Part shown: positions 4,356-14,966 of the stretch, one piece after another
Position numbering within the stretch: the stretch's first letter is position 1
How the letters are laid out: each line of letters opens with the position of its first letter
Source: a virus
Strand: one strand, 5' to 3'
Virus record (IMG/VR): IMGVR_UViG_3300009684_000207
Span: 1 to 21,202 of that record
DNA: 21,202 bases
Position numbers and translations under genes: made by a program
Notes under the pieces: model-generated
Databases searched by the model: none
Seen by the model: only the letters and a program-made list of their open reading frames with translations
Told to the model about the DNA's origin: nothing

Positions 4356-4769
4356 TTATTGTATTTTTTTTGAAATTTCGTACGAAGGATCTTCGTCTAT
4401 TGTATAACCTAATCTTTTGTGCGCGTTTAATACACTTTTATTTTTACCAACGCTAAATATCATTTTAGCACCGGTACTTTTAGCAATAGACTCTAATGAA
4501 TTTATCAATAATTCTAATGCTTCTTTTTTATTTTTGTTTCTATAGTTTTTATCAGATATTATCCACTCTAACCAAGCAATCGATGAATTTGTTAAATATA
4601 AAAAACCAGCAATAATAGGTTGTCCATCACTCTCAATTATTAAACCACCCATGCCGTTTAAAGGTAGTATTTCTTTAGGAGGATGTGTTTTCCATTCTTC
4701 CCATGATGACCACCAACTAACTAATGTTTCCCAGTCTGATTCTCTTAATTCTCTTACTTTTAATTCCAT
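4356..4769 (-). CDS. GNAT-family N-acetyltransferase
   Basis: The 137-residue product has the length and strand-helix order of a GNAT domain. It begins with a beta strand and REL (residues 6-9), then a Trp-rich helix (13-27). A GGLIIESDGQPIIAGFLYLT hairpin (41-60) and the central strand IAWLEWIISD (64-73) follow, then the turn YRNKNKKEA (76-84) leading into a helix. The C-terminal part, ending FSVGKNKSVLNAHKRLGY (105-122), is typical of the family. The turn sits where acetyl-CoA pyrophosphate is usually bound but lacks the textbook Q/RxxGxG/A glycines, being Asn/Lys-rich. Catalytic activity and substrate are unknown; a virion protein or host target is possible. It lies between tail and internal-protein genes with gaps of 10 and 1 bases, so it is co-expressed with them. 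I recall similar acetyltransferases in structural clusters of other aquatic phages. Confidence 0.85.
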   Translation of the reverse strand: MELKVRELRESDWETLVSWWSSWEEWKTHPPKEILPLNGMGGLIIESDGQPIIAGFLYLTNSSIAWLEWIISDKNYRNKNKKEALELLINSLESIAKSTGAKMIFSVGKNKSVLNAHKRLGYTIDEDPSYEISKKIQ

Positions 4770-4779
4770 TTGATTTGAT

Positions 4780-6378
4780 TTAATATGACGATTCTACATA
4801 TTCTGCAGATACAGCATATAATTCTGCTTTTTGATTTAAGTTTGCATTTACAGTGGCATTGTCAGTTGTAAAAGTTGCTGTAGAATAAAAACCTTTAATA
4901 CCTGATATAGATTGTCCCCATTCTACTTCTCCTCTTTGTACAGCGCTTATGTTTAAAATATTAGCAAAATATTTATTTTCTTTCTTTTTAAATTTATTTT
5001 GAAACAATTGATCTTCTAAACCAGATAAAGTAGAAGGAAAGAAATATTGTTGTACAACGGCAGAATTATCTGTTTCTGTGTAAAAACTAGTTAAACCCCA
5101 GTTCTGTGTTCCTTCATAATTTATTGTTAAAAATGATTTAGAAACAGAGACATTAGGATTAAATACAATGGTTACATTTGATTTATAAAAATTATTATAA
5201 AAAGTTGCTTTAGGAACAGAATTAATATAATGTTTCCAAAGTTTACCTTCATAAACAGTATAAAAATTGTTTCTTAAACTTATTCCAAAATTAGGTATAT
5301 AACTAAAGAAACTTGTCCAACCATTAGATTCTTCATCAAAAGAAAGAGTTACATTTTCTCCTGATGTTGGTTGAATAGATAGTACATACTGTTTATTATG
5401 CATGTCCCACATTCCATAAACATATCCGTTTACTAAACTAGTATTTGATAATTGATCTCTAAAATAATCAAGCATTCCATAGGCAGATATTTCTGTTATG
5501 CCGTCTTGAGATAATCTTAAAACAACATTCTGATAATTATCTACAAAGTATTTTCTATATCCATATACTGCAAAACTCTCAGGATGTGAACCTATACCAT
5601 AATTACCAGCATAGGATTGAATCTGACCTATTACAGCGGTTCCAGAAGTAGTTATTGGTTGACCGTCAGCAGAGTAAACAGCGTCTTTGTCTATCAATGC
5701 TCTACTAACTTTTAATTCTTGAAATATAATTAAATTAGTATCTTCTGCATATAGTTTTTGTATTGAACCCTGAGCAGGATCTACTGTTCTAGTAATATCA
5801 TCCGCAACAGAGAATTGATTAGTATTATTAATCCCTGTTTTTGAATTAAATATTCCAGAGTATATTAATGTGCTTATTAGTTTTTCTCTATTAGGAGAAT
5901 CATCTACTATATAAGCTTTAACACCAAAATCTACAGATGTATTATCATATCCACCTCTAATTCTTGATTCTTCTATATACCAATCTCTATCTGCTGTAGT
6001 TGCATAACGACTAGGTAACCAAGCATTATTTACTATTTTTCCAAAAGTTAATATTGTACTAGTAAGTACATTTGATCCAGTAATTACTTTTGATAATGTT
6101 AAAACAGTATTAGAACCACCAACAACTTTTAATATTATTGTATAAGTATATTCAATACCCGATATTGTATAGGTTAATATTTGTCCAATACCTACTGATA
6201 TTGCATCTGCATTTGTTATAGTTATAGTATTTGTACCAATATTTGAATTAACCACTGGTAATGCCGTGTTAGGGGTAGGTGGTGAAGAACCAGGTTCTAC
6301 ATCACTAACAGCGACAATAGTAGCCATTTTCTTTAACCAAAATGAATTATAATATTTTATTTCTATAGTAGCTGACAT
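4780..6378 (-). CDS. Tail-stabilisation (muzzle-like) protein, C-terminal-type half
   Basis: The 532-residue product matches, from memory, the C-terminal part of tail-stabilisation/muzzle proteins of crAss-like and flavobacterial podoviruses. Telling stretches are IEESRIRGGYDNTSVDFGVK (135-154), IYSGIFNSKTGINNTNQFS (172-190), GSIQKLYAEDTNLIIFQE (204-221) and VVLRLSQDGITEIS (285-298). It is beta-rich, as expected for a propeller-like tail part. Residues 35-115 look like a small inserted beta module between the KYYNSFWLKK start (8-17) and the family core. I chose the ATG at 6378 because that KYYNSFWLKK stretch looks conserved in relatives; the ATG at codon 18 would remove it. The gene follows the 1352-residue tail gene after 32 bases, in a different frame. 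The two probably form one complex at the tail tip. It is one of the likelier cell-surface-facing parts of the virion. Confidence 0.85.
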   Translation of the reverse strand: MSATIEIKYYNSFWLKKMATIVAVSDVEPGSSPPTPNTALPVVNSNIGTNTITITNADAISVGIGQILTYTISGIEYTYTIILKVVGGSNTVLTLSKVITGSNVLTSTILTFGKIVNNAWLPSRYATTADRDWYIEESRIRGGYDNTSVDFGVKAYIVDDSPNREKLISTLIYSGIFNSKTGINNTNQFSVADDITRTVDPAQGSIQKLYAEDTNLIIFQELKVSRALIDKDAVYSADGQPITTSGTAVIGQIQSYAGNYGIGSHPESFAVYGYRKYFVDNYQNVVLRLSQDGITEISAYGMLDYFRDQLSNTSLVNGYVYGMWDMHNKQYVLSIQPTSGENVTLSFDEESNGWTSFFSYIPNFGISLRNNFYTVYEGKLWKHYINSVPKATFYNNFYKSNVTIVFNPNVSVSKSFLTINYEGTQNWGLTSFYTETDNSAVVQQYFFPSTLSGLEDQLFQNKFKKKENKYFANILNISAVQRGEVEWGQSISGIKGFYSTATFTTDNATVNANLNQKAELYAVSAEYVESSY

Positions 6379-6410
6379 ATTTAATAATTACTTGTTTTTT
6401 AATATTATTA

Positions 6411-9400
6411 CTAACAATTGTCAATAATAACCGTTCCACCTACTCCATAACTTAATGAGTTATCTCTTATGCATGTATAAGTTCCTCCATAAAATGTACT
6501 ACCTACAAAGTTACCTGGAGTTAATATACCTCCTATAACTTCTCCTGCGCTAGATGTTAATGCTTGCCATCTAATACTAGTTGTAAGATTATCATTTGTT
6601 AATTTCCATTTTTTATTATTAGTACTAGGAGGTACTGGAGGTAAATAAAAATTAGGAGCAATATTACATGTTTGTGATCCAGACGTGAATGTAGTAGGAA
6701 CACCTGTATATTGACTTTGTAAATCTATTGGTATAGTTCTTCCAGAAGGTAATACACTAATACTACCTGATAATTCTAATTGGTCTGCAGGATTAAAATC
6801 GGTTGGACCTTGATTTGCTGTAAAAGCAAAAGTACCATCAAAATTACTAGAAGAAAAAACAAGTTTATTTGAACCAGGAGGTGGAAAATAAAAACCACCA
6901 CCAATAGCACTATAACCAAATATTTCTACATTAGTATTAGCAATGTCTATGGTTTCACCAGGTCCAAACATTCTCCAGAAGTTAAACTTTCCATGAATAA
7001 AATTACCATAATCAAATTCAGGACCAGGACCAGTTACAACACCGCTTGTCCATTCAGAACAAAAATTAGCACTTGCAGGTACGTTTATTATTATATTTCT
7101 TTCCGCATACAAAGAACCATTGCCTGGAGTACTTGTAGCAAAATTATAAGCGTCTGTGAGTCTAATAGTGGTATAAAAATCAACACCAACAGGTACTGTT
7201 ATAGTGTTTAAGTTAATAACTCCTGTTACTGGGTCAATACTAAAATAAGTTGAAAATCCAGGAGTAATACTAGATATTGACCACTGCAATTGTTGTGTGT
7301 TAAATGCAGGATCTGATGCAATAGTAGGCGCTCCATTTATTCCAGTACAAGATATTATAGGTCCAACTATTAAGTCATTAATATAGAAAACTTCGACTGG
7401 ACTCTGTAATATAGGATAACTTATCACTGGAATAGAATTATTTAAACTATTAACAGTTGTTAAAGTCGTATTACCATTAGTTGTATCTATTATATTAAAT
7501 GTGAATATATAACTTTCTTTTGAAGTTGAGTTTATTAAAAATACAAATGGATTTTTAATTTTAATAGCAAATTTTCCAGATTCTAAAGTAGGTGGTAATA
7601 TTGGCACTCTAATTAATTCAAAATCTTCACTTCTATTAGCACCTGTTAAATCAACAACAGTCATAGACATACTGTCTACGTTTATTGGTAATCCTAAACT
7701 ATTTATAGGAGAAAAATATCCAGTTATATATGGAGAATTTTGATCTCCGTAATCTAAAGGACCAAGTATTCCACTAGATTCTTGAAATTCATTATGTTCA
7801 AATATTAAATTATCAAAACCTATAACTATATCACTGCCTGTCAATATATCCACATTTAAATCTGATATTAAACCAGAAGAAGACGTTTCCCAAAATATAT
7901 CAAGTAAAGAAACAACTGGTGCTGTTTCATATATACTTAAAAAAGGATTCATAGTATGTTGAACAGTTGGAGGAGCAGCAGAAACAAGGTCGCTAGCTAT
8001 AACACCTATTTTATTTACTGTAGATATTCTAGCAATAATTGGAGTTGTACTTAATTGATAAAAATTATTAGAAGCAGTTCCATTAATATTATCCGGATTA
8101 TTTGTCACTAAAAAATTCAAATCTGCTGATGATGCAATAGTAGAAGCTACGTCTGCTTTTTTAGCTGGATAATATTGTTTATTACTAGTTATAATTGCTT
8201 CTAATAAGTTTTCTACTCTACCAAATAATTTAACACTACTTCTATATTGTTTTTGATCTGGACCAACTTCTGTTAAGTCTCTAGGTATTTTATTTATATT
8301 GTCATTTAGTAATACAGTATGAATTGTTTTATTTACTTCATTTGAAGGAAATAAAGTAGGATTAGTACCTCCTGTAGAAATAGTTTGAAACATTGGATAA
8401 CCATTAAGAAATCCTGGTAAATAAACATTGTAGTACTCTTGTTGTTGTTGTCTTACAACTATTTTATATGAATACCAACCTGGTTGATTTAAATCATAAG
8501 CGTATTTAATATCTGGATTATTAGTACTATTATAATTATATATATCACTAATTTCTCCGTCACAAGTTAAAGGACCATCAACATCTATTATTTTAACATA
8601 ATCTGTATACTTTCCTCTTAAATAATTCCCTAAAACAGGTATATTAGTTTGAGAAGTACCAGTTTGTAAAACATAATAGTATTGCGTACCGCCAACTATA
8701 TATCCAGAAGATATTGCAAAACCATTTCCGGTTTGACCATTTACCCCTGAAACAATAGCATATAGACCAGGAGTTCCAGCACCTTCGTTTATAGAAGATA
8801 CTATAGGAGAGTTAACAATCATTGCCAATGTATTACCTCTCCATTCTTTAACGTTTAAATTAGAACTTTGAATGTAATATGGCGAATACAAAGTTGATCC
8901 AACTAAACTAATCCCATCTGCTGTTTTTCCAATATCATTAGAAGATAATATAACTGTTGATTGTCTACCAAATTTATCAGATAAAACTATACCTGCTTGA
9001 TAATTTCTATTTTGTTTTAATGTATGATTAGGATACTCTGCCCAACTAGTAAAAGAATCAGTCTTTTTGGTTACTGCTAAGTTATAATCTATAGCGGCAG
9101 GAGGAGTACTTTTATTTATAAAATTACCATATATAACTCTATTACCAACTATTTCTTGAGCTCTTGCTCTAACTGGAACTTTATCGTACACTCTAACTGT
9201 TTGAGATTCTGGTAGTGTTTTGTATGGTTTTTGTGATCTATAAATATAAGTATAATTATTTGTTGAAGTTGCTTGTAATTTTATTTCATTTACATTTACA
9301 GTTTCCAATACTTTTATAGTAAGAGCATCTGATTCTTTATATAGAATGTCTATGCTTTTTATCTTGTATGAATTTTCTATATTATTGCCAGTATCAGGTA

Positions 9401-10469
9401 ATTCTACATGTAATTCTATATTGTTTATAAAATTTTCCATCCAAGATACTATAGTACTTCTATATGCCGCATCTTCATCTCCACTTAAGAAATAACCATT
9501 TTGATTTGGTATAAACATTATTTGAGTAAAAGGAGCCATTAAAGAATATTCTCCATCGTCAAATTTATATCTATAACTAAATCTTACATATTTGTCTTTT
9601 AAATAATTTGGATCTCCAGGCCAATTTTGTTCATCTGCTTTATTTGTCATTGATGTTCCGTAAAAGTGCAAAACAGATCCTGATGGAATTGTAGTTGTTA
9701 CAGGAACAGAAACTATAACAGTATAAACCGCACCAATATTATTTAGTTCCGTTATCACAGCATAATTATTCAATGTCAATGCTGGAGTAGATAAATTAGT
9801 TATTAATTGCATACCAATATTTAGCAATGCAAAGTCGGTAGATGAAACTGTAAAAGATACAGATTGAATGGTAGGATTACTAGATGCACTTGTCGTTGTG
9901 ATAGGTATATCTAAATAAACATTCATTGGTAATACAGGAGCGTATTTAGCTACAGATATTTGTACTTCATCTGTATAATAATTTGGGTTTGTAATAGCAC
10001 TTGATATATTTATTTTTCTAGGTTGATTTCTATTATCAGTCCAGAATAATAAATTTTCTAAAACATTTGCTCCTAATATTTTATATTGTGGATTTGTAGC
10101 AAAATTTAAAAAAGGTCCAGAAACTAAAGTTTTTAATGGAGGACTTGAATTAAGATCGTAAACAGTAATACGCATGTCTGCTAATACAGGAGGAATTAAC
10201 GTATTAAGTGTGTCAGTATAATCAGTCCAAAATTGAAATATTCTATTATTTTGATTGTCAGCAACTTGACCTATACAAATTAAATCATTATTACCAGTAT
10301 CAGCAACAAGATCATTGCCAAGAACCGCTTCCAACGCTCCAACATCTTTATCCTCTGCTTTACCTACTGATATATTTAAAGCGTCTCTATATTCTCCATT
10401 AGGAATAAGTCTATCATCTAGATCTTTATTCATTTTGGATTGTAGAAAACTATTTTTTACTTCTGCCAT
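6411..10469 (-). CDS. Tail-stabilisation (muzzle-like) protein, N-terminal-type half with cadherin-like region
   Basis: This is the largest complete gene, 1352 residues. The N-terminus has the pattern KMNKDLDDRLIPNGEYRDAL (12-31), which I associate with the tail-stabilisation or muzzle protein of crAss-like and related podoviruses. Further family-like stretches are SYRYKFDDGEYSLMAPFTQ (298-316), AGIVLSDKFGRQSTV (492-506), a WYSYKIVVRQQQQEYYNVYL stretch (665-684) and SLLDIFWETSSSGLISDLN (854-872). A small beta module appears inserted at about 198-273. Residues 1065-1130 resemble a cadherin/Ig-like repeat (FSIDPVTGVINL at 1076-1087, then IRLTDA). The last 220 residues are Gly/Pro/Ser-rich beta sequence and hold four of the seven cysteines (1137, 1268, 1333, 1352). 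This tail end is a candidate host-contact region. The gene starts 5 bases after the adaptor gene and ends in TAG; the C-terminal half of the family follows as a separate gene. Confidence 0.87.
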   Translation of the reverse strand: MAEVKNSFLQSKMNKDLDDRLIPNGEYRDALNISVGKAEDKDVGALEAVLGNDLVADTGNNDLICIGQVADNQNNRIFQFWTDYTDTLNTLIPPVLADMRITVYDLNSSPPLKTLVSGPFLNFATNPQYKILGANVLENLLFWTDNRNQPRKINISSAITNPNYYTDEVQISVAKYAPVLPMNVYLDIPITTTSASSNPTIQSVSFTVSSTDFALLNIGMQLITNLSTPALTLNNYAVITELNNIGAVYTVIVSVPVTTTIPSGSVLHFYGTSMTNKADEQNWPGDPNYLKDKYVRFSYRYKFDDGEYSLMAPFTQIMFIPNQNGYFLSGDEDAAYRSTIVSWMENFINNIELHVELPDTGNNIENSYKIKSIDILYKESDALTIKVLETVNVNEIKLQATSTNNYTYIYRSQKPYKTLPESQTVRVYDKVPVRARAQEIVGNRVIYGNFINKSTPPAAIDYNLAVTKKTDSFTSWAEYPNHTLKQNRNYQAGIVLSDKFGRQSTVILSSNDIGKTADGISLVGSTLYSPYYIQSSNLNVKEWRGNTLAMIVNSPIVSSINEGAGTPGLYAIVSGVNGQTGNGFAISSGYIVGGTQYYYVLQTGTSQTNIPVLGNYLRGKYTDYVKIIDVDGPLTCDGEISDIYNYNSTNNPDIKYAYDLNQPGWYSYKIVVRQQQQEYYNVYLPGFLNGYPMFQTISTGGTNPTLFPSNEVNKTIHTVLLNDNINKIPRDLTEVGPDQKQYRSSVKLFGRVENLLEAIITSNKQYYPAKKADVASTIASSADLNFLVTNNPDNINGTASNNFYQLSTTPIIARISTVNKIGVIASDLVSAAPPTVQHTMNPFLSIYETAPVVSLLDIFWETSSSGLISDLNVDILTGSDIVIGFDNLIFEHNEFQESSGILGPLDYGDQNSPYITGYFSPINSLGLPINVDSMSMTVVDLTGANRSEDFELIRVPILPPTLESGKFAIKIKNPFVFLINSTSKESYIFTFNIIDTTNGNTTLTTVNSLNNSIPVISYPILQSPVEVFYINDLIVGPIISCTGINGAPTIASDPAFNTQQLQWSISSITPGFSTYFSIDPVTGVINLNTITVPVGVDFYTTIRLTDAYNFATSTPGNGSLYAERNIIINVPASANFCSEWTSGVVTGPGPEFDYGNFIHGKFNFWRMFGPGETIDIANTNVEIFGYSAIGGGFYFPPPGSNKLVFSSSNFDGTFAFTANQGPTDFNPADQLELSGSISVLPSGRTIPIDLQSQYTGVPTTFTSGSQTCNIAPNFYLPPVPPSTNNKKWKLTNDNLTTSIRWQALTSSAGEVIGGILTPGNFVGSTFYGGTYTCIRDNSLSYGVGGTVIIDNC

Positions 10470-13496: not shown

Positions 13497-14966
13497 TTAC
13501 ACTGATGCAGTAAACAATACAAAATTGTTAGCAGCTTGTGTAACTAAACATCTTTCAGACAAGAAGTGTACTTGCATTGCATCAAGATCAGAAGTGTAAG
13601 CACCTCCAACAGATCCAGTGATCCAGTTTTTCATTCTTCTATCGTCAGCTTGGTTAGCTCTATAGCGAACGTGTAAGAAAGGTCTACGGATATTAGTACC
13701 TAATTGTTGATCGTATACAGTAGATGTTCCAGCAGGAATAAGGATACCATCAATAGATGTATTAGCCATACCACCACGAGTAGAAGCATCATTTAAGTAT
13801 TTCCAGTCAGTTTTGTAGAAATCATAAGATCCACGACGGAAACCAGAGAAACCTAAGTTTAAAGCCATTTGCTCAGAGTTTTCAAATAAACCGTAAGCAA
13901 CACCACCGGCAGCACCTGCTGATAAAGAAGCTAACATGTCGTCAAAGTCAAGAGAAGTAGCTCTATTTAAAAAGAACATGTTTTCTTCAATAGCTCCTTG
14001 AGTATCTAAGTTTTTCAAGATTGAATCAAAATCAGATAAACCTGCAGCAGCAGTAAAGTTATTTACAACATTACCTCTTTCTTTTACAGCAGAGAAAAGA
14101 CCTTGTGTTCCTTTGATATTGTTAACACTTCCTAATGTAGAACCACCAGAAACTAACTCACCTTCAATTACAGACATTTCTAAGTAATCTTCAAAACGTA
14201 ATCTTGTTTCAGATTCAGCTTTTAAATACCATAAGTATCCACCAGTTCCATCTTCAGTTGCAACTTCAACCCAACCAATTTGAGCGGTATCAGAACCAGA
14301 GATTTGGTATCTTTCTTTAATGATAATAGGTGAATTACTATATTGCGTGAAAGAAGGAACTACAGAGTTTAATGTAGCATCAGTTGTTCCTTTTTTAAAC
14401 TCAGAACCGTATACAAAGATTTTAAGATCTGTTGCTCCAGTAAAATTAACAGTATTACCAGAACCTGTAGTTAAATCTAACTGAGTATAAGGTTTTACTG
14501 TAATAACCGCAGGGTTAGTAGCTCCACCAGCACTCGCGTTAGCAGGAGTAGCGGTTGAATCAGTAACGTAAACTTTAAGTTCTTTTCCTGTAGAAGGACT
14601 CATAACTACTAAAGTTTGTCCAATAGAAATAACGTTATTTACAAAATTAGCACCAGTACCACCAGTAACAAAAGTTAAAGTTGTTGCAGAAGCACATGAT
14701 ACATCTTTGTAAGCAATATGTAATCTGTTTTGTTCAGACCAAACTACCTGGTCAGAAGACATAGGCATTTCAGCACCTACCATACGTAAGAAACCAGAAA
14801 GAGTTCTGTTTCCATAACGCTCTACTTCTGCCTCGTAGATTTCTGGTAAATATTGTTGCGCGAAATCATTACCACTTCCATTTGTAAAGTTTAAGTAATT
14901 TGTTTCTAACGCTTGTTGTTTTTGAGACGGTTTAATTGAACCGAATTGTGGAGTCACATTTGACAT
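13497..14966 (-). CDS. Major capsid protein
   Basis: The 489-residue product lies directly after the portal and scaffold-like genes, the classical capsid position. Residues 1-60 are helical (SIKPSQKQQALETNYLNF at 10-27, EIYEAEVERYGNRTLSGFL at 42-60). Residues 88-187 appear to be a beta insertion with small residues and IGQTLVVM (115-122). IIIKERYQISGSDTAQIGWV (214-233) and RLRFEDYLEMSVIEGELV (255-272) resemble the long helix and strands of HK97-fold capsids of Bacteroidota phages. PFLHVRYRANQADDRRMKNW (429-448) and the C-terminal strand follow. No protease or propeptide is apparent, so a separate scaffold seems used. Codon choice differs from neighbours, with more TTC, TAC, AAC and CGT, as expected for the most abundant protein. 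The ATG lies 12 bases after the scaffold stop. The HK97 fold is inferred from the family, not proven. Confidence 0.88.
   Translation of the reverse strand: MSNVTPQFGSIKPSQKQQALETNYLNFTNGSGNDFAQQYLPEIYEAEVERYGNRTLSGFLRMVGAEMPMSSDQVVWSEQNRLHIAYKDVSCASATTLTFVTGGTGANFVNNVISIGQTLVVMSPSTGKELKVYVTDSTATPANASAGGATNPAVITVKPYTQLDLTTGSGNTVNFTGATDLKIFVYGSEFKKGTTDATLNSVVPSFTQYSNSPIIIKERYQISGSDTAQIGWVEVATEDGTGGYLWYLKAESETRLRFEDYLEMSVIEGELVSGGSTLGSVNNIKGTQGLFSAVKERGNVVNNFTAAAGLSDFDSILKNLDTQGAIEENMFFLNRATSLDFDDMLASLSAGAAGGVAYGLFENSEQMALNLGFSGFRRGSYDFYKTDWKYLNDASTRGGMANTSIDGILIPAGTSTVYDQQLGTNIRRPFLHVRYRANQADDRRMKNWITGSVGGAYTSDLDAMQVHFLSERCLVTQAANNFVLFTASV

Follow-up and report, generated by a model that had tools for sequence, protein, structure and literature searches.

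Two adjacent genes encode successive parts of a crAss-like muzzle protein in uncultured phages

Results

We analysed a 21 kb virus contig from IMG/VR (record IMGVR_UViG_3300009684_000207, positions 1 to 21,202; below, the window), the minus strand of which carries the structural block of a short-tailed phage. On this strand the genes follow in the order terminase, portal, scaffold-like protein, major capsid protein (MCP), three more head/tail proteins, and then two adjacent genes, A (10469-6411; 1352 amino acids, aa) and B (4780..6378; 532 aa); a small acetyltransferase-like protein and then other virion proteins are encoded 3′ of B. A, B and all their parts given below lie on the minus strand. 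The ATG of B stands 32 nucleotides (nt) after the stop codon of A, and the two genes are in different frames. An earlier note on this DNA, made from the sequence alone, had taken A and B for two parts of the tail-tip muzzle protein of crAss-like phages, and its coordinates, lengths, 32-base gap and frame difference were all exact. The pair lies directly after the ring (tail tubular) genes, matching the order of gp43 and gp44 (the muzzle) in phage phiCrAss001 (crAss001).

Both A and B match PHROG 14478 (virion structural protein, 1474 positions), at separate places: the best stretch of A, residues 287-451, falls on positions 188-334, and B 162-495 falls on 947-1278. Profile–profile alignment with hhalign placed A 1-509 on residues 1-395 and B 136-472 on residues 877-1197 of the muzzle of phage phi38:1, and placed A 1-157 on 1-150 (E 2.6e-9) and B 199-425 on 1058-1281 of crAss001 gp44. 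The earlier note had called for such a comparison, and the result agrees with what it expected: A is the N-terminal and middle part, B is the C-terminal part, the two have no region in common, and fused relatives were found. The N-terminal anchor motif noticed there is likewise backed by the alignment of A 1-157. B also carries the Pfam domain crAss_MUZ_C (PF25729) at residues 391-474 (4957..5208), with an E-value of 1e-7, above the curated cut-off. The family crAss_MUZ (PF25731) had no match in A or B up to E 1, and none in the phi38:1 or elemovirus proteins. Pervagoviridae and elemoviruses are closer to this phage than is the order Crassvirales.

Sequence searches of A and B against solved structures gave nothing useful, and gp44 was reached by structure comparison only. 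AlphaFold models were made of A 1-1200 and of B from alignments of 77 and 81 relatives, with a mean predicted local distance difference test score (pLDDT) of 80 and 77, respectively. In these models, A 53-872 aligned to gp44 55-934 (Z 12.1, 346 residues) and B 161-529 to gp44 1024-1371 (Z 18.1, 310 residues). The gp44 structures 7qok and 7qol were the top structural matches of B, and gp44 was the sole phage-tail match for A in the VIA-align list. The two predicted chains together contain the ring-joining domain, seven-bladed propeller, IG2 and crass domain in the order of gp44, with the strand detail approximate. A and B are successive, non-overlapping parts of one crAss-like muzzle protein: as had been proposed, the products of the two adjacent genes align, by hhalign and by structure, to different, adjoining parts of one chain.

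In gp44, IG2 sits within propeller blade 3 and itself takes up the crass domain as insertions between strands E-F (453-904) and G-H (940-1012); the gate loop is located in blade 4 (PMC10172136). We took the gp44 domain boundaries from that work and carried the blade and strand assignments over to the A core (residues 1-872, 7854..10469; delimited by PHROG 14478, hhalign and structure alignment). The core comprises the N-terminal segment, blades 1, 2 and the start of 3, the IG1 site, IG2 strands up to G, and the main crass insertion. Its last element is the conserved strand YETxPVxSxLDIFWETSxxGLISDLN, the counterpart of SINIEYTE just before residue 940 of gp44. Gene B, assigned by PHROG, PF25729, hhalign and structure alignment, continues with the IG2 G-H insertion, strand H, the rest of blade 3, blades 4-7 and the C-terminal domain. 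It opens with a conserved segment (residues 1-18, MSATIEIKYYNSFWLKKM; 6325..6378; from the consensus and hhalign), and this start, KYYNSFWLKK, is equivalent to YNAFAW of phi38:1 and YDCLR of gp44. After an insert, B has DWYIEESRIRGGYDN, the counterpart of gp44 VSFMCESKVNIDGRYD. These correspondences were partly aligned by hand; the hhalign matches of B 2-13 to phi38:1 859-870 and to residues 977-988 of the related locus L084 are weak but collinear. In single-chain proteins ~10-30 residues separate the A-end strand from the B-start strand. Because these two strands match gp44 around residue 940, the break is at the start of the G-H insertion, after IG2 strand G and, by the hand alignment, at about gp44 residue 940.

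A break at this point would leave IG2, the crass domain and the seven-bladed propeller each common to both chains. With the break lying within such a nested fold, a free A:B stoichiometry is unlikely, and 1:1 co-assembly of A and B is likely; the different ratio of the two chains that the earlier note had envisaged is thus improbable for the core. Conserved A 1-55 and B 131-197 both had a pLDDT below 50 when each chain was folded alone, which may hint, weakly, at domain sharing between the chains. B 131-197 (5788..5988) corresponds by hhalign to the gp44 G-H insertion up to blade 3 and is highly conserved, with a mean identity of up to 0.93 per block.

The A core is followed, directly after its last conserved strand, by a C-terminal extension (residues 873-1352, 480 aa plus the stop codon; 6411..7853) with no counterpart in single-chain relatives. 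It is the most variable part by length and sequence: among 77 relatives it measures 281-986 aa versus 424-609 aa for B, and identity to the window, at 0.4-0.7 over the A core, drops to 0.2-0.3 over the extension. VIA-align of the predicted structure placed two tandem cadherin-like domains at A 880-1133 (7071..7832). The modelled second domain, A 1014-1133, aligned to 5co1_A with Z 12.2 and a root mean square deviation (rmsd) of 1.8 Å over 94 residues, and A 880-1133 as a whole resembles many two-domain cadherin fragments, the rmsd of the two-domain matches being larger. The extra 480 residues remarked on earlier at the end of A are therefore real, variable, and begin with two cadherin-like domains. 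When the extensions of 75 relatives were compared with Pfam, 18 of them had weak Cadherin matches at E up to 0.1 (best 1.1e-4), and single ones matched Fib_succ_major, beta-trefoil or lectin-like families, mostly weakly. The final 219 residues of A (1134-1352) were poorly modelled or fell outside the model. The distal crass region has been proposed to touch the cell (PMC10172136), and the most economical reading is that the extension would be an exchangeable cell-contact module, an adhesin port, at the distal tip.

The split is widespread. In a scan based on B, 80 of 80 loci were split. A scan that used the window's capsid protein, and so took no account of how the muzzle is built, gave 26 scorable loci, 25 of them window-like, one further divided and none fused, and all nine contigs from metagenome-assembled genomes (MAGs) that hold both halves were split. 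A and B always occurred together and in the same order in the loci scanned. The earlier statement that these are two chains and not a readthrough product holds, with ~95 loci having both genes complete and with fused relatives in existence. Assembly error or a pseudogene was ruled out, as dozens of contigs and MAGs show the arrangement independently. The fused, cultured relatives are phi38:1 (gp97, 1324 aa), the elemovirus (1493 aa), phi14:2 and crAss001 (gp44, 1371 aa). The split is a consistent trait of a large uncultured clade of aquatic phages related to crAss-like viruses, below called type I.

The gap between A and B in type I relatives ranges from an overlap to 70 nt. Two of them, L055 (8827-9849) and L066 (9055-9852), have an added gene between A and B; these open reading frames (ORFs) of 340 and 265 aa have no family match and, by eye, a fibre-like N-terminus. 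In two others (L045:5479-9661 and L070:5403-9766) A itself lies in two overlapping frames, through a sequencing error or a real frameshift.

A scan based on the Manatee Spring podovirus MW202828 revealed another type of split (type II), with 27 clear and 8 probable cases. Here the last propeller blade (MxNYTLTYSExxxGWPSFYSF) opens the second gene, a tail of about 270-800 aa that is missing from fused forms ends the first gene, and an unrelated extra gene of 144-634 aa usually stands between the halves. This split characterises a second clade as well as some relatives of phi38:1; L084:8001-14021 shows it, as do some 30 loci related to it (e.g. L173, L176, L236). The phi38:1 group holds both fused and type II members, and L251, L253, L254 and L259 are split without the extra gene. 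In capsid and muzzle trees (quick FastTree trees with long branches) the window's type forms one well-supported group, and the architecture changes at least 3 times overall. Two further candidates were rejected. The gut crAss phage cr108_1 is not an independent split, its muzzle being one 2031-aa gene. In Bohxovirus PV686213, four features lie under the match, but the whole region is annotated as short fragments, which may reflect a changed genetic code, and there is no muzzle split of this kind.

Between-genome distances of the A core and the B core were correlated at 0.67 (partial correlation 0.63 given MCP; 0 of 500 permutations as high). For A and its other direct neighbour, the 410-aa protein R410, the correlation was 0.26 (0.09 given MCP). 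The capsid protein of the window (13497-14966) is 95% identical to that of relative L059, with the muzzle parts only about 45-55% identical; for this reason the structural block seems to be mosaic, with the A-B pair exchanged as a cassette.

Both chains hold further variable inserts. At the IG1 insertion site, A 185-275 (9645..9917) forms a small beta-rich region that varies in relatives; conservation falls at A 201-250, and the region is missing in phi38:1, where the flanking profile segments N1 and N2 are only 11 residues apart. In L130 (14592-19514) the same site of muzzle A, at residues 217-390, holds a Fib_succ_major domain (Pfam E 3.8e-22). The B gene of L130 is divided into two ORFs of 202 and 203 aa. 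In B, residues 35-117 (6028..6276; pLDDT about 90) make up a small beta domain between the first strand and the conserved WYIEESRIRGGY segment. VIA-align matched it to residues 103-180 of 9n71_A (phage Mystique, tail tube protein; Z 12.4, rmsd 1.7) and to residues 139-229 of 7w1d_H (Klebsiella K1 capsule lyase; Z 11.6). As a mobile module of other virion proteins it was not found beyond type I B genes in this set.

Directly upstream of the B ATG lies a conserved leader, AAAAAACAAGTAATTATTAAAT (6379..6400; from alignment and motif count). In 72 of 82 genomes the B start is immediately preceded by the strict form of a motif close to AAAAAYAAGTRATWATTAAWT (0.8 in shuffles). The strict form never preceded the starts of A, R410, MCP, X295, S308, G137, portal or terminase, and preceded R248 in 2 of 79 cases. 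The leader may be a promoter, a translation signal or a regulator-binding site. An extended Shine-Dalgarno sequence was ruled out by inspection, as the 16S tail does not pair with GTAAT, the common form of the motif. RNA structure at the A-B junction was no better than in shuffles (z -0.92), and Rfam gave no intron or other RNA family within the window.

The acetyltransferase-like gene 3′ of the muzzle genes is of the GNAT type (phrog_17252; window 4356-4769), and an acetyltransferase-like gene also lies downstream in MW202828.

Discussion

The above results establish the mapping of A and B, the breadth of the split, the extension and the co-inheritance of the two genes. The best explanation, to which we assign a probability of roughly 0.86, is that A and B form one crAss-like muzzle subunit in two chains, broken at the IG2 tip, with an added extension as the likely contact module. 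Complex formation, its stoichiometry, adhesion and the path of the signal are what we infer from here on. An ancestral single chain would have been cut at the IG2 tip, immediately behind strand G (at about gp44 residue 940). The N-terminal segment, the first two blades with the beginning of the third, most of IG2 and the main crass insertion would be on chain A; on chain B would be the G-H portion of the crass domain, the final strand of IG2, the remaining propeller and the C-terminal domain, and the propeller part on B would be the one that in gp44 holds the gate loop (blade 4). A and B would associate 1:1, presumably while folding, closing IG2 and the propeller, and then form a hexamer at the tail end. 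The break would have left A with a free C-terminus where the distal region had an internal loop before, and there the variable, cadherin-like-led extension could be gained. This extension would most likely be an exchangeable cell-contact module, whose engagement could be relayed via the crass and IG domains to the gate in B.

Several points weigh against this explanation. The contact between A and B is deduced from homology. The rmsd of the A model to gp44 is 4.5-4.8 Å over 346-361 residues, which makes the single-strand assignments approximate. Linkage alone could raise the correlation of A and B distances. The low pLDDT of A 1-55 and B 131-197 may in part reflect limits of AlphaFold, and the unmodelled segments equal the rest in conservation without significantly exceeding it (p about 0.11). 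As to the extension, the window's own has no Pfam Cadherin match and the matches of relatives are weak, and the cadherin-like domains are putative binders only.

It is also possible, though we consider it unlikely, that the split is real but the extension of A is structural or regulatory, such as a chaperone or a cap shed on assembly, rather than an adhesin. Cadherin-like folds also serve as plain spacers, and A 1134-1352 is the poorly modelled part. However, the extension is the part that varies most, it is placed at the distal crass region, for which contact with the cell has been proposed, and single members have the lectin-like, Fib_succ_major or beta-trefoil matches described above. Considerably less probable is that A and B are different tail proteins of muzzle descent with separate placement or copy number; B might, for instance, be a plug in the propeller and A a tip protein resembling a fibre. 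Two genes could indeed differ in expression level, and B has its specific leader, but neither chain by itself has all that a complete IG2 and propeller require, and the two are constantly paired, in the same order, with correlated divergence. Least credible is a single chain after all, produced via an intron, intein, ribosomal bypass or frameshift or obscured by an assembly error: although introns are known in structural genes of crAss-like phages (PMC7886860) and a few relatives (L045, L070) have A broken in overlapping frames, it is contradicted by about 95 split loci with complete genes plus independent MAG assemblies, by the variable gap (with a whole extra gene in L055 and L066), by the unrelated sequence and varying length of the A C-terminus, by the conserved ATG and own leader of B, and by the negative Rfam result.

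The muzzle of two chains can be compared with known systems. PhiCrAss001 gp44 (PDB 7qok, 7qol, 8ckb; PF25731 and PF25729; PMC10172136) has the same domain order and fold as A and B together, and PF25729 is also found in B. It differs, however, in being one 1371-aa chain with no cadherin-like extension, and in PF25731, which matches neither A nor B. Gp97 of phi38:1 (Pervagoviridae) and its elemovirus counterpart (phrog_14478) belong to the same family, with ~30% identity to A and B, and their gene order is the same (terminase, portal, capsid, ring proteins, muzzle), but each is a single gene with a short linker at the site of the A end and B start. MW202828 and its type II relatives have the muzzle in two genes, the first with a C-terminal tail, as in type I. 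In contrast to type I, their break lies before the last blade, the second gene is about 250-275 aa, a gene between the halves is usual, and there is no B-type leader. T7-like nozzles (T7 gp12, P22 gp10, SU10 nozzle) have the propeller and ring-joining fold at the tail end and are matched by B; unlike A and B, they are single chains and lack the crass domain. Described muzzles are single polypeptides, and neither the window nor any type I relative has this trait. We found no account of a split muzzle in the open-licence papers searched. The two-chain muzzle is a new form of a hallmark tail-tip protein.

We tentatively suggest, at somewhat below even odds, a wider rule for environmental crAss-like phages. 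Muzzle breakage may recur at two defined loops, the start of the IG2 G-H insertion and the site before the last blade, each time with a tail added to the first chain and often a gene between the halves. At these loops, acting as ports, host-contact modules would be exchangeable while the rest of the gatekeeper stays rigid, and the B-specific leader would control the second chain.

The muzzle, the plug at the tip of the tail, is the conserved gatekeeper of crAss-like phages, hitherto described as a single chain with a unique fold. In the two-chain form the region proposed for cell contact belongs to one chain, and the other has most of the propeller together with the equivalent of the gate blade. 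This division offers a direct way to study how contact with the cell leads to opening of the tail. The form is also a case of a conserved virion protein that related lineages have split at two distinct loops, adding new modules to the chain end set free.

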